Below are positions 3,082 to 12,010 of a stretch of DNA of 64,000 nucleotides, piece after piece. Within the stretch, counting starts at the first letter, position 1. Each line of letters starts with the position of its first letter. The stretch is from a virus. Made by a program: the position numbers and the translations under genes. The stretch lies in IMG/VR virus record IMGVR_UViG_3300032069_000005, positions 1-64,000 of that record; one strand, written 5' to 3'. The notes under the pieces are model-generated. The model had not been told where the DNA came from, ran no database searches, and worked only from the letters and a program-made list of their open reading frames with translations.

Positions 3082-3836
3082 GAAAAACAATTTTTTGGTT
3101 AGTAATAATTGGGATTTTATTATTTACTTCTTTGGGATATTGTGCTAATTATAATGTGCAAAGTAATACACCACAAAATAATCAGGGTTATATTTTTATT
3201 AGCACTGGGCAGAAGCAAGGAGGCACAGAAATAGGCACTTGGACAGACCCAATTACAATACCGACTTTAAAGGGAGATAAAGGAGACCAGGGAATTCAAG
3301 GTATAGCCGGAAAGGATGGTTATACGCCTATTAAAAATATTGATTATTTTGATGGAGTAAATGGGGCAGATGGTTTAAATGGAAAAGATGTAGACCCCGC
3401 AACAGTTACTAATTTACAAAATGAAGATAATATTTTAGATAAAAAAATAATAGATATTGGTGATTTTAATAGTTATGTAAATAATAGACAAGATAATCAA
3501 TTACAAGACCACGAAAATAGGATAAATGCGTTAGAGGAAACTCAATACAATGTTGAAAGTGCAGTAAGAATATTAGATACCAAAAAAACTACATTGGAAA
3601 TTTATAATACATATGATATAAGGCACTCCAGAGAAATAGCAATAGGTATTCGGGTTATATATAAGTTAGGCAAATCATATCAAGATAGAGTGAATGAAAA
3701 AATAGAAACAAGATTGTCTAATTTAGAAAAAACATTAGACAATTCTCCTATAATTACGAAAGTAGTAGATATAAAAGGAAATACTAAATCTGTTCGGATA
3801 ACTGAAAATGGTTTAAAGATTGAAGGAGGATTTTAA
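3078..3836 (+). CDS. Secreted collagen-like protein
   Basis: 252 aa. Residues 1-22 form a signal peptide (basic start, hydrophobic core, GYCA cleavage region). A collagen-type Gly-X-Y stretch, KGDKGDQGIQGIAGKDG, lies near residues 68-84, with a second short run, GADGLNGKD. The C-terminal half is helical and probably a trimeric coiled coil (about 110-220), ending in a short beta region. Collagen-like stalks are common in phage fibres, but a secretion signal is unusual for a virion part and points to export or the host surface. It overlaps the AT-hook gene by 4 nt. Confidence 0.7.
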   Translation: MRKTIFWLVIIGILLFTSLGYCANYNVQSNTPQNNQGYIFISTGQKQGGTEIGTWTDPITIPTLKGDKGDQGIQGIAGKDGYTPIKNIDYFDGVNGADGLNGKDVDPATVTNLQNEDNILDKKIIDIGDFNSYVNNRQDNQLQDHENRINALEETQYNVESAVRILDTKKTTLEIYNTYDIRHSREIAIGIRVIYKLGKSYQDRVNEKIETRLSNLEKTLDNSPIITKVVDIKGNTKSVRITENGLKIEGGF

Positions 3837-3837
3837 A

Positions 3838-3984
3838 ATGATGAAGAATTGTTTTAAATCTAATATTTTTGTTCCAGATAATTATCCTGAAGTATTTTTT
3901 GACGAATTTTTATTGAGATGCAGAACTTGTGATAAATTTGAAATCTGCAGAGAAATAATAGAAAGAAAAAAATGTTTAAAGTAG
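3838..3984 (+). CDS. Cys-rich micro-protein (48 aa)
   Basis: Starts at ATG 3838 after TGAAGGAGG. It contains RCRTCDKFEIC and a later Cys, a possible compact zinc site. It overlaps the next gene by 13 nt. No family is recognised. Confidence 0.55.
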   Translation: MMKNCFKSNIFVPDNYPEVFFDEFLLRCRTCDKFEICREIIERKKCLK

Positions 3985-4302: not shown

Positions 4303-4710
4303 ATGGCTAAAAACGCTGGCTTTACCTGGCATTGTCATCACACTGTTTTATTAGAGTTTTGTTACGACTACAATAAAAGAAAAAACATTATTAAAACTAC
4401 TAAATCCAAAAACGAAATAGAAACTCGCTTACGCCTATTTAAATTTGTTAAAGGCAAACTCCCCGGTGGAATTATTAAGACTGGGCAAAAGCAAGCAAAA
4501 GCTTGGCAGAAGTGGCAGGAGGCTTGGGTCTCGTGCGGCACGTCTTGGCAGGAATACAATGAAGCTTGGCTGAAATACAATGCAGTGGGGCAGGAATGGA
4601 AAAAAGCTTTATCTAAATATAAAAACCGTTTAGAAGCCCTACACAAACAAGAATGTGGATGTAAGGAATGGAACGGAAAAGAGATAGTATTCCCAAAAGA
4701 AATAAAATGA
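4303..4710 (+). CDS. HH...CYDY / CGCKEWNGKE family protein
   Basis: 135 aa. ATG 4303 is chosen over an upstream TTG (4276) because AAGGAGG at 4290-4296 is ideally placed. The N-terminus (HCHHTVLLEFCYDY, then ETRLRLFK) and C-terminus (CGCKEWNGKEIVFPK) match those of the gene at 11459. The middle is a degenerate Trp/Ala-rich repeat (WQKWQEAW, WQEYNEAW) where the paralogue has a clean 7-residue repeat. His and Cys clusters at both ends suggest metal binding. Function is unknown. Confidence 0.7.
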   Translation: MAKNAGFTWHCHHTVLLEFCYDYNKRKNIIKTTKSKNEIETRLRLFKFVKGKLPGGIIKTGQKQAKAWQKWQEAWVSCGTSWQEYNEAWLKYNAVGQEWKKALSKYKNRLEALHKQECGCKEWNGKEIVFPKEIK

Positions 4711-6787: not shown

Positions 6788-7825
6788 ATGAGTTTTTTAA
6801 ATTCTATATATGATGTATTGGGAATTTCTTTTCTTATGGAGAGAGAGCATAAGACCGAACAATATGAAGCAGAGCCGGAAACTGCCCCAGAAGAAAAGAA
6901 AGAAGTAATTATTCAAGAAATAAAACCAATTAAATTTATTTATAGACCAGATACACTCGAAAAATATATTGGTCAAATTCAAGCTAAAAAATTAGTAAGA
7001 ATGGCTTCGAATGTTATAATTAATAAGAAACCGTTGCATTTTTTGATTAGTGGACACGCAGGTATGGGGAAAACCACATTAGCACAAATTATAGGAAAAG
7101 GGCAATTAGGATATAATTTTTATTCTTATATTGGCAATTCATTTACTCAAGATACTTTAAAAGATTTTTTAATTAAGAATGAGGAAAGTGCCAGACCAAG
7201 TGTTTTATTTTTAGATGAAATTCATTCTGCTGATAAAGAAATTTTAGAATTTATGCTTCCAATAATTGAAGATTTTAAATTAAATGAAATAAAACTATCT
7301 CCATTCGTGATGATATGTGCTACAAATGAAAAGAGCGTTTTATTGAGAAAATCAAAACCCTTTTGTGATAGAATACAAATACAAGTTCAATTAGAAGATT
7401 ATAATGCAGAAGATATTAAAATAATATTAAAACAATATACTCAACAAGTCTATGATATAGAAATATCAGAAGAAGTTTATGATATATTATCGGTTAATAC
7501 TCGATATAATCCACGCATTTCCATTGCTTATATGGATTTATACATTGGTTGTAGAGATATTAAAACTGTTTTAGAAGCCAATCGAGTTATAAAAGATGGA
7601 ATAACGGATATAGATTTAAAGATATTGAATCATCTTAATTCTACTAATGGGAAACCGATAGGCGAGCAAGCATTATCAGTAATTGCAAATGTAGAGAGAA
7701 TAGATTATGTGGAATTACTTGAACCTTATCTTATGAGGAGAGATTTAATTTCTCGCACAAGTAGAGGAAGAATACTCACTGAGCAAGGGAAAATATTTTT
7801 ACAAGAATTAAAAAATGAAAAATAA
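6788..7825 (+). CDS. ruvB: RuvB-like Holliday-junction branch-migration helicase
   Basis: 345 aa, the length of bacterial RuvB, with an acidic N-terminal extension (1-45). RPDTLEKYIGQ (53-63), Walker A GHAGMGKTT (89-97), Walker B FLDEIH (141-146), sensor 1 CATN (177-180) and an arginine-finger region FCDR (192-195) are all present. The C-terminal winged helix reads GKPIGE...LLEPYLMRRDLISRTSRGR, the RuvB DNA-binding pattern. It would drive branch migration at recombination junctions. No RuvA is seen in the window. A clamp-loader role is less likely given the winged helix. Confidence 0.85.
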   Translation: MSFLNSIYDVLGISFLMEREHKTEQYEAEPETAPEEKKEVIIQEIKPIKFIYRPDTLEKYIGQIQAKKLVRMASNVIINKKPLHFLISGHAGMGKTTLAQIIGKGQLGYNFYSYIGNSFTQDTLKDFLIKNEESARPSVLFLDEIHSADKEILEFMLPIIEDFKLNEIKLSPFVMICATNEKSVLLRKSKPFCDRIQIQVQLEDYNAEDIKIILKQYTQQVYDIEISEEVYDILSVNTRYNPRISIAYMDLYIGCRDIKTVLEANRVIKDGITDIDLKILNHLNSTNGKPIGEQALSVIANVERIDYVELLEPYLMRRDLISRTSRGRILTEQGKIFLQELKNEK

Positions 7826-8420
7826 ATACTGTAAATTATGTAACAAATTATTTAATCCTACGGGGCAGAATCAAAAATATTGTTCTAAATTATGTTATAA
7901 ATTAACTCGTAAAAAATACATTCATAATTGGCGAAAAAATCATCCCGATTATAGTAAAAAATATTCTAAACTCCACAAAAAAGAAATCAATGAATATAAT
8001 AAAAAATTTTGTAAAGATTGCGGCAAAGCAGTATTTGGACACGATAAAAATATAAAGAGATGTAAAAGGTGTTCAAATATTAAAAATATGTCTATTAGAG
8101 ATTATACTGGAAAAAATAATCCTAATTTTAATAATCATATTTTAAAAGGCAGATTTAAAGGAAAGAAAAATCCGATGTATGGCAAACCTGCCCAAAGTCA
8201 TAATACAAAAAATACAATAGTTGAACATCATATAGATTTAAATAAAATTAATCACAAAAAAAATAATAAATTATTTTTAACCCACAGTATTCATTCGAAA
8301 TTACATCAACGAGCATATGAATACTTGGTAAAAAAAGAATTGGTTCGTAAATATATCAAATGGTTTTTTAAAAATAAACTCAATAATAAAGAAAAACAAC
8401 TATTACAGGAGATTAAATGA
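7815..8420 (+). CDS. HNH-type homing endonuclease with zinc fingers
   Basis: 201 aa, strongly basic. Two zinc modules (CKLCNKLF...YCSKLC near 6-30; CKDCGK...CKRC near 67-87) are followed by NUMOD3-like GKNNPNF and GKKNPMYGK elements (about 100-125). The catalytic-type segment VEHHIDLNKINHKKNN...LHQRAYEYLV lies near 138-175. This is the layout of free-standing phage homing endonucleases. It overlaps both neighbours, so it sits as an intergenic insertion between ruvB and the recombinase. Confidence 0.75.
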   Translation: MKNKYCKLCNKLFNPTGQNQKYCSKLCYKLTRKKYIHNWRKNHPDYSKKYSKLHKKEINEYNKKFCKDCGKAVFGHDKNIKRCKRCSNIKNMSIRDYTGKNNPNFNNHILKGRFKGKKNPMYGKPAQSHNTKNTIVEHHIDLNKINHKKNNKLFLTHSIHSKLHQRAYEYLVKKELVRKYIKWFFKNKLNNKEKQLLQEIK

Positions 8421-10532: not shown

Positions 10533-10730
10533 ATGAATTTTTTATCAGTTTATAGAAAAGCAAAAAAATTAACTCAATTTGATGTTGCTAAAATTTTAGG
10601 CATTACCGATACACTTATTTGTAAATGGGAAACAGGTAAGATTATACCTACAAATGAACAAATTGTTAAATTAAGTGAAATTTATGGAGTAGGAGTAAAA
10701 AAATTATTTCCTGAATTATTTGGAGAATAA
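10533..10730 (+). CDS. Cro/CI-type HTH regulator
   Basis: 65 aa, essentially one HTH_3 domain: YRKAKKLTQFDVAKILG then DTLICKWETGKIIPT and a terminal helix. This is the size of Cro or XRE-family phage repressors without an oligomerisation domain. It sits directly behind the 10377 promoter and next to the sigma-like gene, suggesting a control node. Together with the recombinase at 8625 it hints at a lysogeny-type or lysogeny-derived module. Confidence 0.8.
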   Translation: MNFLSVYRKAKKLTQFDVAKILGITDTLICKWETGKIIPTNEQIVKLSEIYGVGVKKLFPELFGE

Positions 10731-10734
10731 TAAA

Positions 10735-11283
10735 ATGAATACAAAAATTTGTAATATATGCAAAATAGAAAAATTAGCAACAGAAGAACATTTTTATGAA
10801 GGAAGCTGTAAAGATGGACTGGCTTCTTCTTGTATAGATTGTCATAAAATATATATGAAAAATTGGCGGGCAAGAAACAAAGATAGAATAAGAAAAGCTC
10901 GAAAACAATATTATCAAAAACATAAAAAAGAAGCCATTCAGTATCAACAAAATCATAAAGAACAAATGAAAATCTATGATAAAAAGTATCGTCAACGCCA
11001 TTCCGACAGAATAAAAAATAAAAATTTAAAATATATTTATGGAATAACTTTAGAGGATAAAAAGAAAATATATAAAAATCAAAATAATAAGTGTAAAATT
11101 TGTGATAATTTTTTTGATATTAATCTATTGAAAATAGACCACAATCATTTAACAAACGAAATAAGAGGATTATTATGTAATAAATGCAATGCAGGGATTG
11201 GATTTTTACAAGAAAATCTTAAAATATTACAAAATGCAATTAATTATTTAAAAGAATATGAAAAATTCATAGGGGGAAAATAA
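10735..11283 (+). CDS. Recombination endonuclease VII-like nuclease
   Basis: 182 aa; ATG 10735 is preferred to an upstream TTG because GGAG lies nine bases before it. An N-terminal zinc module (CNICKIEKLATEEHF...CIDCHK) is followed by a very basic linker (about 45-100). The C-terminal domain has KCKICDNFF, IDHNHLTNEIRGLLCNKCN and the typical GFLQENLKILQNAINYL end. This is the His-Me endonuclease VII pattern (T4 gp49 family), which resolves Holliday junctions; free-standing homing versions also exist. It may partner the RuvB-like protein. Confidence 0.8.
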   Translation: MNTKICNICKIEKLATEEHFYEGSCKDGLASSCIDCHKIYMKNWRARNKDRIRKARKQYYQKHKKEAIQYQQNHKEQMKIYDKKYRQRHSDRIKNKNLKYIYGITLEDKKKIYKNQNNKCKICDNFFDINLLKIDHNHLTNEIRGLLCNKCNAGIGFLQENLKILQNAINYLKEYEKFIGGK

Positions 11284-11285
11284 TA

Positions 11286-11462
11286 ATGGAAGAAATTAAA
11301 CCTACGCCAGAACAAATTGAAACAAAGAAAAAAGAATTTAAATTACTTCAAGAAAAAATGACAAAAGCAATGTCAAAAATTAATGCTATCTTGGAAGAAG
11401 AGGGGTTAGTATTGCGAATTGCTCAAGATATTATATTAGCACCTAAAAGGGAGGTAAAATGA
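11286..11462 (+). CDS. Helical micro-protein (58 aa)
   Basis: Lys/Glu-rich, probably coiled coil (EQIETKKKEFKLLQEKMTK...). It starts just after the nuclease gene, and its stop overlaps the next start as ATGA. Its final codons contain the GGGAGG ribosome site of the repeat gene. Function is unknown. Confidence 0.55.
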   Translation: MEEIKPTPEQIETKKKEFKLLQEKMTKAMSKINAILEEEGLVLRIAQDIILAPKREVK

Positions 11463-12010
11463 AAACTGCGGGTTTAGCCATACACGTTCACCACAATATT
11501 TTAGTAGAGAATTGCTATGATTATAAAGAACGAGAAGAAGCGATAAAAGCTGCTAAACCTCTAAACGAACAAGAAATAAGATTACGTCTATTTAAAATGT
11601 TACCAAAAAAAGCCATAGCTGAATTGCCAAGAAATTTAATCAAGGCAATCGCTGACTGGGATAAGGCAAACGCTGACTGGGATAAGGCAAACGCTGACCT
11701 GGATAAGGCAAACGCTGACCTGGATAAGGCAAACGCTGACCTGGATAAGGCAAACGCTGACTGGGATAAGGCAAACGCTGACCCGGATAAGGCAATCGCT
11801 GACCTGGATAAGGCAATCGCTGACTGGGATAAGGCAAACGCTGACCTGGATAAGGCAAACGCTGACCTGGATAAGGCATACGCTGACCTGGATAAGGCAA
11901 ACGCTGACTGGGATAAGGCAAACCAAGAAGCTTGGCATAAGAAATGGTGCGGTTGTAAGGAATGGAACGGGAAAGAGATTATATTTCCAAAAAATAAAAA
12001 ACGATTATGA
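11459..12010 (+). CDS. Tandem-heptapeptide protein, HH...CYDY family
   Basis: 183 aa. The N-terminus (HVHHNILVENCYDY, IRLRLFK) and C-terminus (CGCKEWNGKEIIFPK) are shared with the protein at 4303. Between them lie about 14 copies of a 7-residue unit, DKANADL or DKANADW with minor changes, encoded by a 21-bp tandem repeat. The repeat is Ala/Asp-rich and should form one long helix. Because the unit is 21 bp, copy-number changes would keep the frame. Function is unknown; terminal His and Cys clusters suggest metal binding. Confidence 0.75.
   Translation: MKTAGLAIHVHHNILVENCYDYKEREEAIKAAKPLNEQEIRLRLFKMLPKKAIAELPRNLIKAIADWDKANADWDKANADLDKANADLDKANADLDKANADWDKANADPDKAIADLDKAIADWDKANADLDKANADLDKAYADLDKANADWDKANQEAWHKKWCGCKEWNGKEIIFPKNKKRL
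11642..11923 (+). repeat. 21-bp in-frame tandem repeat (about 13.4 copies)
   Basis: AAGGCA recurs 14 times at exact 21-bp spacing from 11642 to 11915. Units differ by a few substitutions (CTG/TGG/CCG and AAC/ATC/TAC codons). The array is GC-rich compared with its surroundings and wholly inside the gene at 11459. Confidence 0.95.

Follow-up and report, generated by a model that had tools for sequence, protein, structure and literature searches.

Conserved ends and a variable heptad-repeat arm in a protein family of phages and Patescibacteria

Why would a small phage protein keep its two ends constant and let its middle vary? The question is raised by a 64,000-nucleotide stretch of viral DNA (positions 1 to 64,000 of IMG/VR virus record IMGVR_UViG_3300032069_000005; hereafter, the window), in which a preliminary description made from the letters alone had noticed a pair of paralogous genes with like ends and unlike middles. 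The first gene, P0001 (11459..12010, plus strand), encodes 183 residues; the second, P0002 (4303..4710, plus strand), encodes 135. The start of P0002 is taken here as ATG 4303; the mechanical list of open reading frames begins it at TTG 4276. We asked what the conserved ends and the repeated middle form, how the middle changes and which explanation best accounts for both.

Results

In a protein search of the window's complete 86,231-bp record, P0001 and P0002 were the only members found, and they matched each other with E values of 3.9e-14 in the N part and 1.7e-8 in the C part. They are therefore homologous well beyond chance, and the paralogue pair proposed earlier is confirmed. An N-terminal HxHH stretch and a C-terminal CGCKEWNGKEI-FP stretch are common to both. 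The middle of P0001 is indeed a clean heptad repeat (xDKAxAD; 11642..11923, plus strand), for which TRF reports period 21, 13.4 copies, 93% matches and a score of 459. The Trp/Ala-rich middle of P0002 (4480..4632, plus strand) is as degenerate as had been supposed, with a lag-21 DNA identity of 0.50 and only 2.6 degenerate TRF copies, at 4544-4597. A relative of P0002 in IMG/VR has caps 82% identical to it and an arm longer by one heptad. Among 13 consecutive 21-bp units of P0001, differences are confined to two codons (CTG/TGG/CCG and AAC/ATC/TAC); each of these differences changes the amino acid, and no synonymous one occurs. The variable residues fall at heptad positions a (L/W/P) and e (N/I/Y) and at no other. 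The P0001 arm has 50% GC (GC3 0.54) within a phage of 29% GC, and most members have an arm richer in GC than the DNA on either side of it (mean 0.52 vs 0.42). A unit of 21 bp, about two DNA turns, would also suit iterons lying within the gene; we set this reading aside because what members have in common is the heptad pattern and not the DNA unit, and because the changes alter the amino acid.

In IMG/VR, scans with growing alignments recovered about 57 virus records in which the same two ends enclose differing middles, and five or six Patescibacteria genomes carry such genes as well, so that conservation of the ends extends far beyond the pair. The bacterial carriers include Yanofskybacteria (three copies), one Parcubacteria contig listed as a virus in IMG/VR too, and further genomes that came from searches of relatives. 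Occurrence in this phylum is sparse, with about one clear case among the 379 genomes of the phylum and 4 of 45 genomes in one order. Several queries gave no family match among 50,697 INPHARED records of isolate phages or among PLSDB plasmids. Two to four copies are present in several of the carrier records; in one, a pair of family genes is separated by only 9 bp. Two contigs picked up through short matches (L005 and L023) are not members. P0001, P0002 and 36 diverse relatives, some with single deviations, share a motif whose two parts lie in one open reading frame: HxHH-x(4)-E ... R ... IK ... RLRL in the N part and H-x(3)-C-x(1-3)-C-x(0-3)-W-[ND]-G in the C part. Over these 38 members, H9, H11, H12, E17, R25, K33, R41, H160, C164 and W169 are invariant and the second cysteine, C166, nearly so. 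In P0001 the first part lies within residues 1-57 (11459..11629, plus strand), with its H9-x-H11-H12 cluster; the second occupies residues 158-183 (11930..12007, plus strand), with H160, C164-G-C166, W169-N-G and I-x-F-P. The invariant His and Cys residues suggest that a metal site may hold the two parts together and that the ends may bind a partner, the two roles proposed for them earlier. The ends are without any model in Pfam, NCBIfam or PHROGs, whose matches fall mainly over the coiled coil, and no match to PADLOC defence families that is common to many members falls on them. P0001 itself matches long SMC-like proteins of PADLOC (JetC, LmuB), chiefly along its arm. In the open-access literature, no family having such ends is known to us.

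How ends and repeats may fit together is indicated by an AlphaFold2 model of P0001 (pLDDT 89.6, pTM 0.75, 30 aligned sequences). It begins with two strands and three short helices, continues with a helix at 58-102, a turn and a helix at 109-150, and closes with one more helix followed by the Cys segment; in the N-terminal half, strands span 5-11 and 14-19, and helices 22-32 and 35-44. The turn, predicted at 103-108, directly precedes P109, the only proline of the array, which is encoded by CCG in a unit 53% along the arm (11768..11788, plus strand). In the model the ends thus meet and the repeats form a hairpin arm. Both ends are thus predicted to make up one base domain, from which the repeats would project as an antiparallel, Ala-rich helical hairpin. 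The arm superposes on solved coiled-coil hairpins with 1.0-1.5 Å over about 90-95 residues, and the nearly repeat-free member L021 gives a compact one-domain model (pLDDT 85.9, pTM 0.74). The earlier idea of a protein of adjustable helical length with caps therefore holds for the helical arm in the model but not for caps at opposite tips of a rod, as both are predicted to belong to a single base domain. A mid-arm proline or phase break is obvious in about ten arms, and about half of the arms are without one, so a hairpin is not necessary in every arm. As for the fold of the base, a weak Foldseek lead to GIY-YIG had a best E value of 2.5, and hhalign gave a probability of 0.5% over 15 columns; a GIY-YIG base thus finds no support, as far as a template of only three UvrC-type sequences can show. 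No PDB match reached a VIA Z of 2 among the 20 chains compared; because a search of 20 chains is thin, we claim no new fold. The base is a small domain without assigned family or fold match, present across unrelated phages and on some Patescibacteria chromosomes.

The same base also carries other repeats. Arrays of 33 bp (11 residues) lie between the same caps in L163 (7760-7986) and in L159 (4869-5055 and 5468-5754). In L148 (1150-1869; identical in L149), the base domain stands behind a pentapeptide-repeat array (E 9e-46) and there is no helical arm. The base thus seems to serve as a general mounting on which arms of different repeats can be placed. Arrays of 33 bp were also seen outside the family gene: in L010, a neighbouring gene has its own repeat of this length (KAIQAPAWESYNAIQ-type) and a further array is present (3702-3954 and 2099-2259). 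Several genes of the same contig share one 5' sequence at their start (TFTYMKKLTK).

Arm length ranges from about 1 to 22 units across the family, and lengths differ by multiples of 7 residues in many of the pairs compared. For instance, L010 and L021 have caps about 93-97% identical in protein sequence and arms of 11-12 vs 1 units. At a syntenic Patescibacteria chromosomal locus with flanks 88-91% identical, the arrays of L093 and L096 differ by 168 bp, that is, 8 x 21. An even closer pair is formed by copy 1 of L042 and the gene of L048, in which 1500 bp upstream, the N-cap and the C-cap are all 100% identical and the arms are separated by two 21-bp gaps and 23 nucleotide changes. The expected in-frame change of copy number by 21-bp units is therefore found among relatives, with differences of two and of eight whole units among others. 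On the other hand, arms are identical in the near-identical phage pairs L046/L047, L153/L161, L148/L149 and G015/G028, which argues against constant phase variation; judged from these sequences, arm change is frequent, not constant.

Length is not the only thing that varies, and the earlier emphasis on it was in this respect incomplete: residues at particular heptad positions diversify as well. Between the two arms of L042 copy 1 and L048, 20 codons differ, of which 20 are nonsynonymous and 0 synonymous, and all lie at positions a, b, e and g, with none at c, d or f. Positions a, b and e also stand out in the mean within-array entropy of 34 arrays (a 1.09, b 1.37, e 1.54; c 0.29, d 0.15). Single-base steps at a, b and e taken together were nonsynonymous in 178 cases and synonymous in 14 over the 34 arrays, against an expected 149:43 (p 3e-8); with one array per lineage the counts were 111:9 (p 7e-6, bootstrap ratio 2.1-15.2). 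The observed ratio is 3.7-3.8 times the neutral expectation, in a codon test that assumes freely evolving units and controls only partly for homogenisation and shared ancestry. Position a alone shows no significant excess of nonsynonymous steps. The caps evolve under purifying selection, with dN/dS of 0.05-0.53 between close relatives. When the heptad is drawn as a helical wheel, a, e and b (at 0, 40 and 100 degrees) sit side by side, facing c, g and d (200-300 degrees); one side of the arm, the packing side, is therefore constant and the other varies. The variable a-e-b side is probably exposed and could act as a binding face.

These data bear directly on whether the arm is a molecular ruler or spacer, in which length counts and the residues merely drift on a surface of no importance. 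Arms often differ in length by whole heptads, and the model predicts a stiff hairpin, both of which favour such a device. However, relaxed constraint gives a near-neutral ratio, far from the excess seen at a, b and e and from the 20:0 of the cleanest pair, and nearly armless members such as L021 persist. We consider a ruler unlikely.

Gene movement was apparent from the genomic context. Two relatives, L195 and G016, have their genes in the same order as the window, and in both P0001 is missing at the corresponding site beside a small membrane ORF; G016 has two family copies of its own elsewhere in the shared order. G015 and G028, which share blocks 99.7% identical, carry a 100% identical family gene at two different places. 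The moved gene lies between copies of ATGCAAGAGAG, an 11-bp direct repeat that includes the start codon: this sequence occurs at the gene's two ends and once at the single empty site, and it forms the start of three different genes. In L143, three successive genes begin with ATGCAAGAGAG (5998, 6472 and 7271), which may be a general shuffling site in the phage group of this contig. Within a lineage, Patescibacteria copies share a consensus-like promoter, a ribosome site and a terminator hairpin, and their wider flanks differ. Among dozens of contigs compared, the family itself was the only neighbourhood element common to many. These comparisons show the gene to be an accessory single-gene cassette that moves between sites and unrelated phages, sometimes as tandem paralogues. 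In six IMG/VR contigs (G004, G016, G025, G028, G578 and G589) both ends lie inside a family gene, and those of G028 overlap by about 126 bp, as in circular maps cut within the arm.

Could the gene then be nothing but a selfish cassette, spreading by short-repeat recombination and dragging along an array that is functionless slippage? The ATGCAAGAGAG-bounded gene at two sites in nearly identical phages, the multiple copies per genome and the shared promoter and terminator flanks in Patescibacteria would all suit it. A protein function is nonetheless required, because the caps are under purifying selection and c and d are constrained while a, b and e are free; we therefore regard this alternative as quite improbable.

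The surroundings of the two window genes bear on a third alternative, a coiled-coil part of the virion such as a tape measure, a fibre or a chaperone. In its favour, the arm weakly matches tape-measure and tail-fibre families in PHROGs, but the matches of P0001 cover only the coiled coil. Moreover, the neighbours of P0001 and P0002 are genes of replication and regulation (clamp loader, sigma factor, integrase, endonuclease VII, exonuclease), and the presence of family genes is scattered, their position changes and some copies lie at bacterial chromosomal loci. A virion role is thus very improbable. At least three small ORFs resembling HNH or endonuclease VII nucleases were also seen near the two genes (1789-2175, 7815-8420 and 10720-11283); the PHROGs comparison covered the third of them.

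Variation kept strictly within a few codons, with nearly no synonymous change, could also come from a diversity-generating retroelement, or a machine of similar kind, that mutates fixed codons in a targeted way, and reverse transcriptases are present in three Patescibacteria carriers. However, a PF00078 search found no reverse transcriptase in seven phage records, including that of the window. The mutation spectrum over the arrays comprises all six base-change classes, with transitions to transversions at 147:129, and is not adenine-specific; gain and loss of entire units occur in addition. For the phages tested, diversity-generating retroelements are excluded, and targeted mutagenesis in general retains very little probability. 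Finally, all sequences are metagenome assemblies and several contig ends lie inside the gene, but assembly chimeras are hardly credible as the source of the array differences, since mis-joining shuffles real alleles and cannot yield a nonsynonymous-only pattern at fixed heptad positions, and the 13 units of the window are internally consistent.

Discussion

Collectively, the data are best accommodated by a mobile adaptor protein made of a base and a variable arm, the arm being a diversifying binding element. We give this explanation as a whole a probability of about 0.6; that the architecture and the diversification, taken together, are correctly described is highly probable. The two conserved ends would fold together as a small base domain, probably with a His/Cys metal site, and the tandem heptads would form the predicted antiparallel helical hairpin projecting from it. 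Unequal recombination between 21-bp units may add or remove whole heptads with the frame intact; the whole-unit differences come from direct comparison, and the recombination step is our proposal for their origin. Selection appears to favour residue change at a, b and e, and sometimes g, and to hold d (Ala), c and the base constant, so that the a-e-b side of the arm could serve as the binding face. As a single-gene cassette, the gene moves between sites and unrelated phages.

What such a protein is used for can be suggested only tentatively. The likeliest use, though less probable than not, is that of an accessory protein inside the cell: its base would dock onto a conserved partner, and its arm would follow one that changes quickly, such as a host defence component or a competitor. 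No surface signal or anchor was evident by eye in P0001 or P0002. A bolder version, which we find somewhat more doubtful still, sees the family as a diversity generator free of reverse transcriptase, in which a constant mobile base shows interchangeable 7-residue, 11-residue or pentapeptide arms in the conflict between phages and bacteria. New binding faces would then arise continually from ordinary repeat recombination, with three or four codons of each unit under strong selection.

If the adaptor explanation is true, phages of uncultured bacteria would commonly maintain, by this route, a binding protein that can change although no mutagenic enzyme is at work. The family would also provide a natural series, one base with arms of about 1 to 22 units and known variable positions, in which to study recognition by helical repeats and how fast a helical repeat surface is selected. 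The single-gene cassette with its start-codon repeats offers a direct view of small phage genes moving.

Variation in repeat length and shuffling cassettes are already known in kind. Periscope proteins are described as bacterial cell-surface proteins with folded repeat domains (PMC9704523) whose arrays expand and contract in populations; there, as here, the length of a tandem array sets the length of the projecting part. Compared with that account, the present units are 7-residue helical ones on a small base, found mostly in phages, and their residues diversify too. Borg elements have fast-evolving repeats within ORFs, with units divisible by three, and their description stresses disordered regions and locus-specific repeats (PMC9879509). 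The family described here likewise has fast-evolving in-ORF units divisible by three on extrachromosomal elements, whereas its members are homologous, share their ends, have an arm predicted to be ordered and recur in unrelated phages. The Ala-rich heptads recall the alanine-zipper helices of Lpp type; the Pfam model Alanine_zipper (PF11839) is matched by 8 of 38 members (best E 1.9e-6). The likeness is a resemblance only, since here a hairpin is predicted on a base, one face varies and no lipoprotein signal is seen by eye. In the PeSL cassettes of T4-type phages (cited in PMC4503421), short conserved gene-boundary sequences allow small genes to move between sites in related phages. A short gene-boundary repeat and a small gene moved between sites of related phages are found here as well; the difference is that here an 11-bp start-codon repeat bounds the moved gene. 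Diversity-generating retroelements also combine a constant scaffold with hypervariable codons; they differ from the present family, which has no reverse transcriptase in the seven phage records and no adenine bias. Lastly, the family touches the pentapeptide-repeat proteins (PF00805) through the one member whose base stands behind such an array (E 9e-46), whereas the arms in the window are helical heptads.
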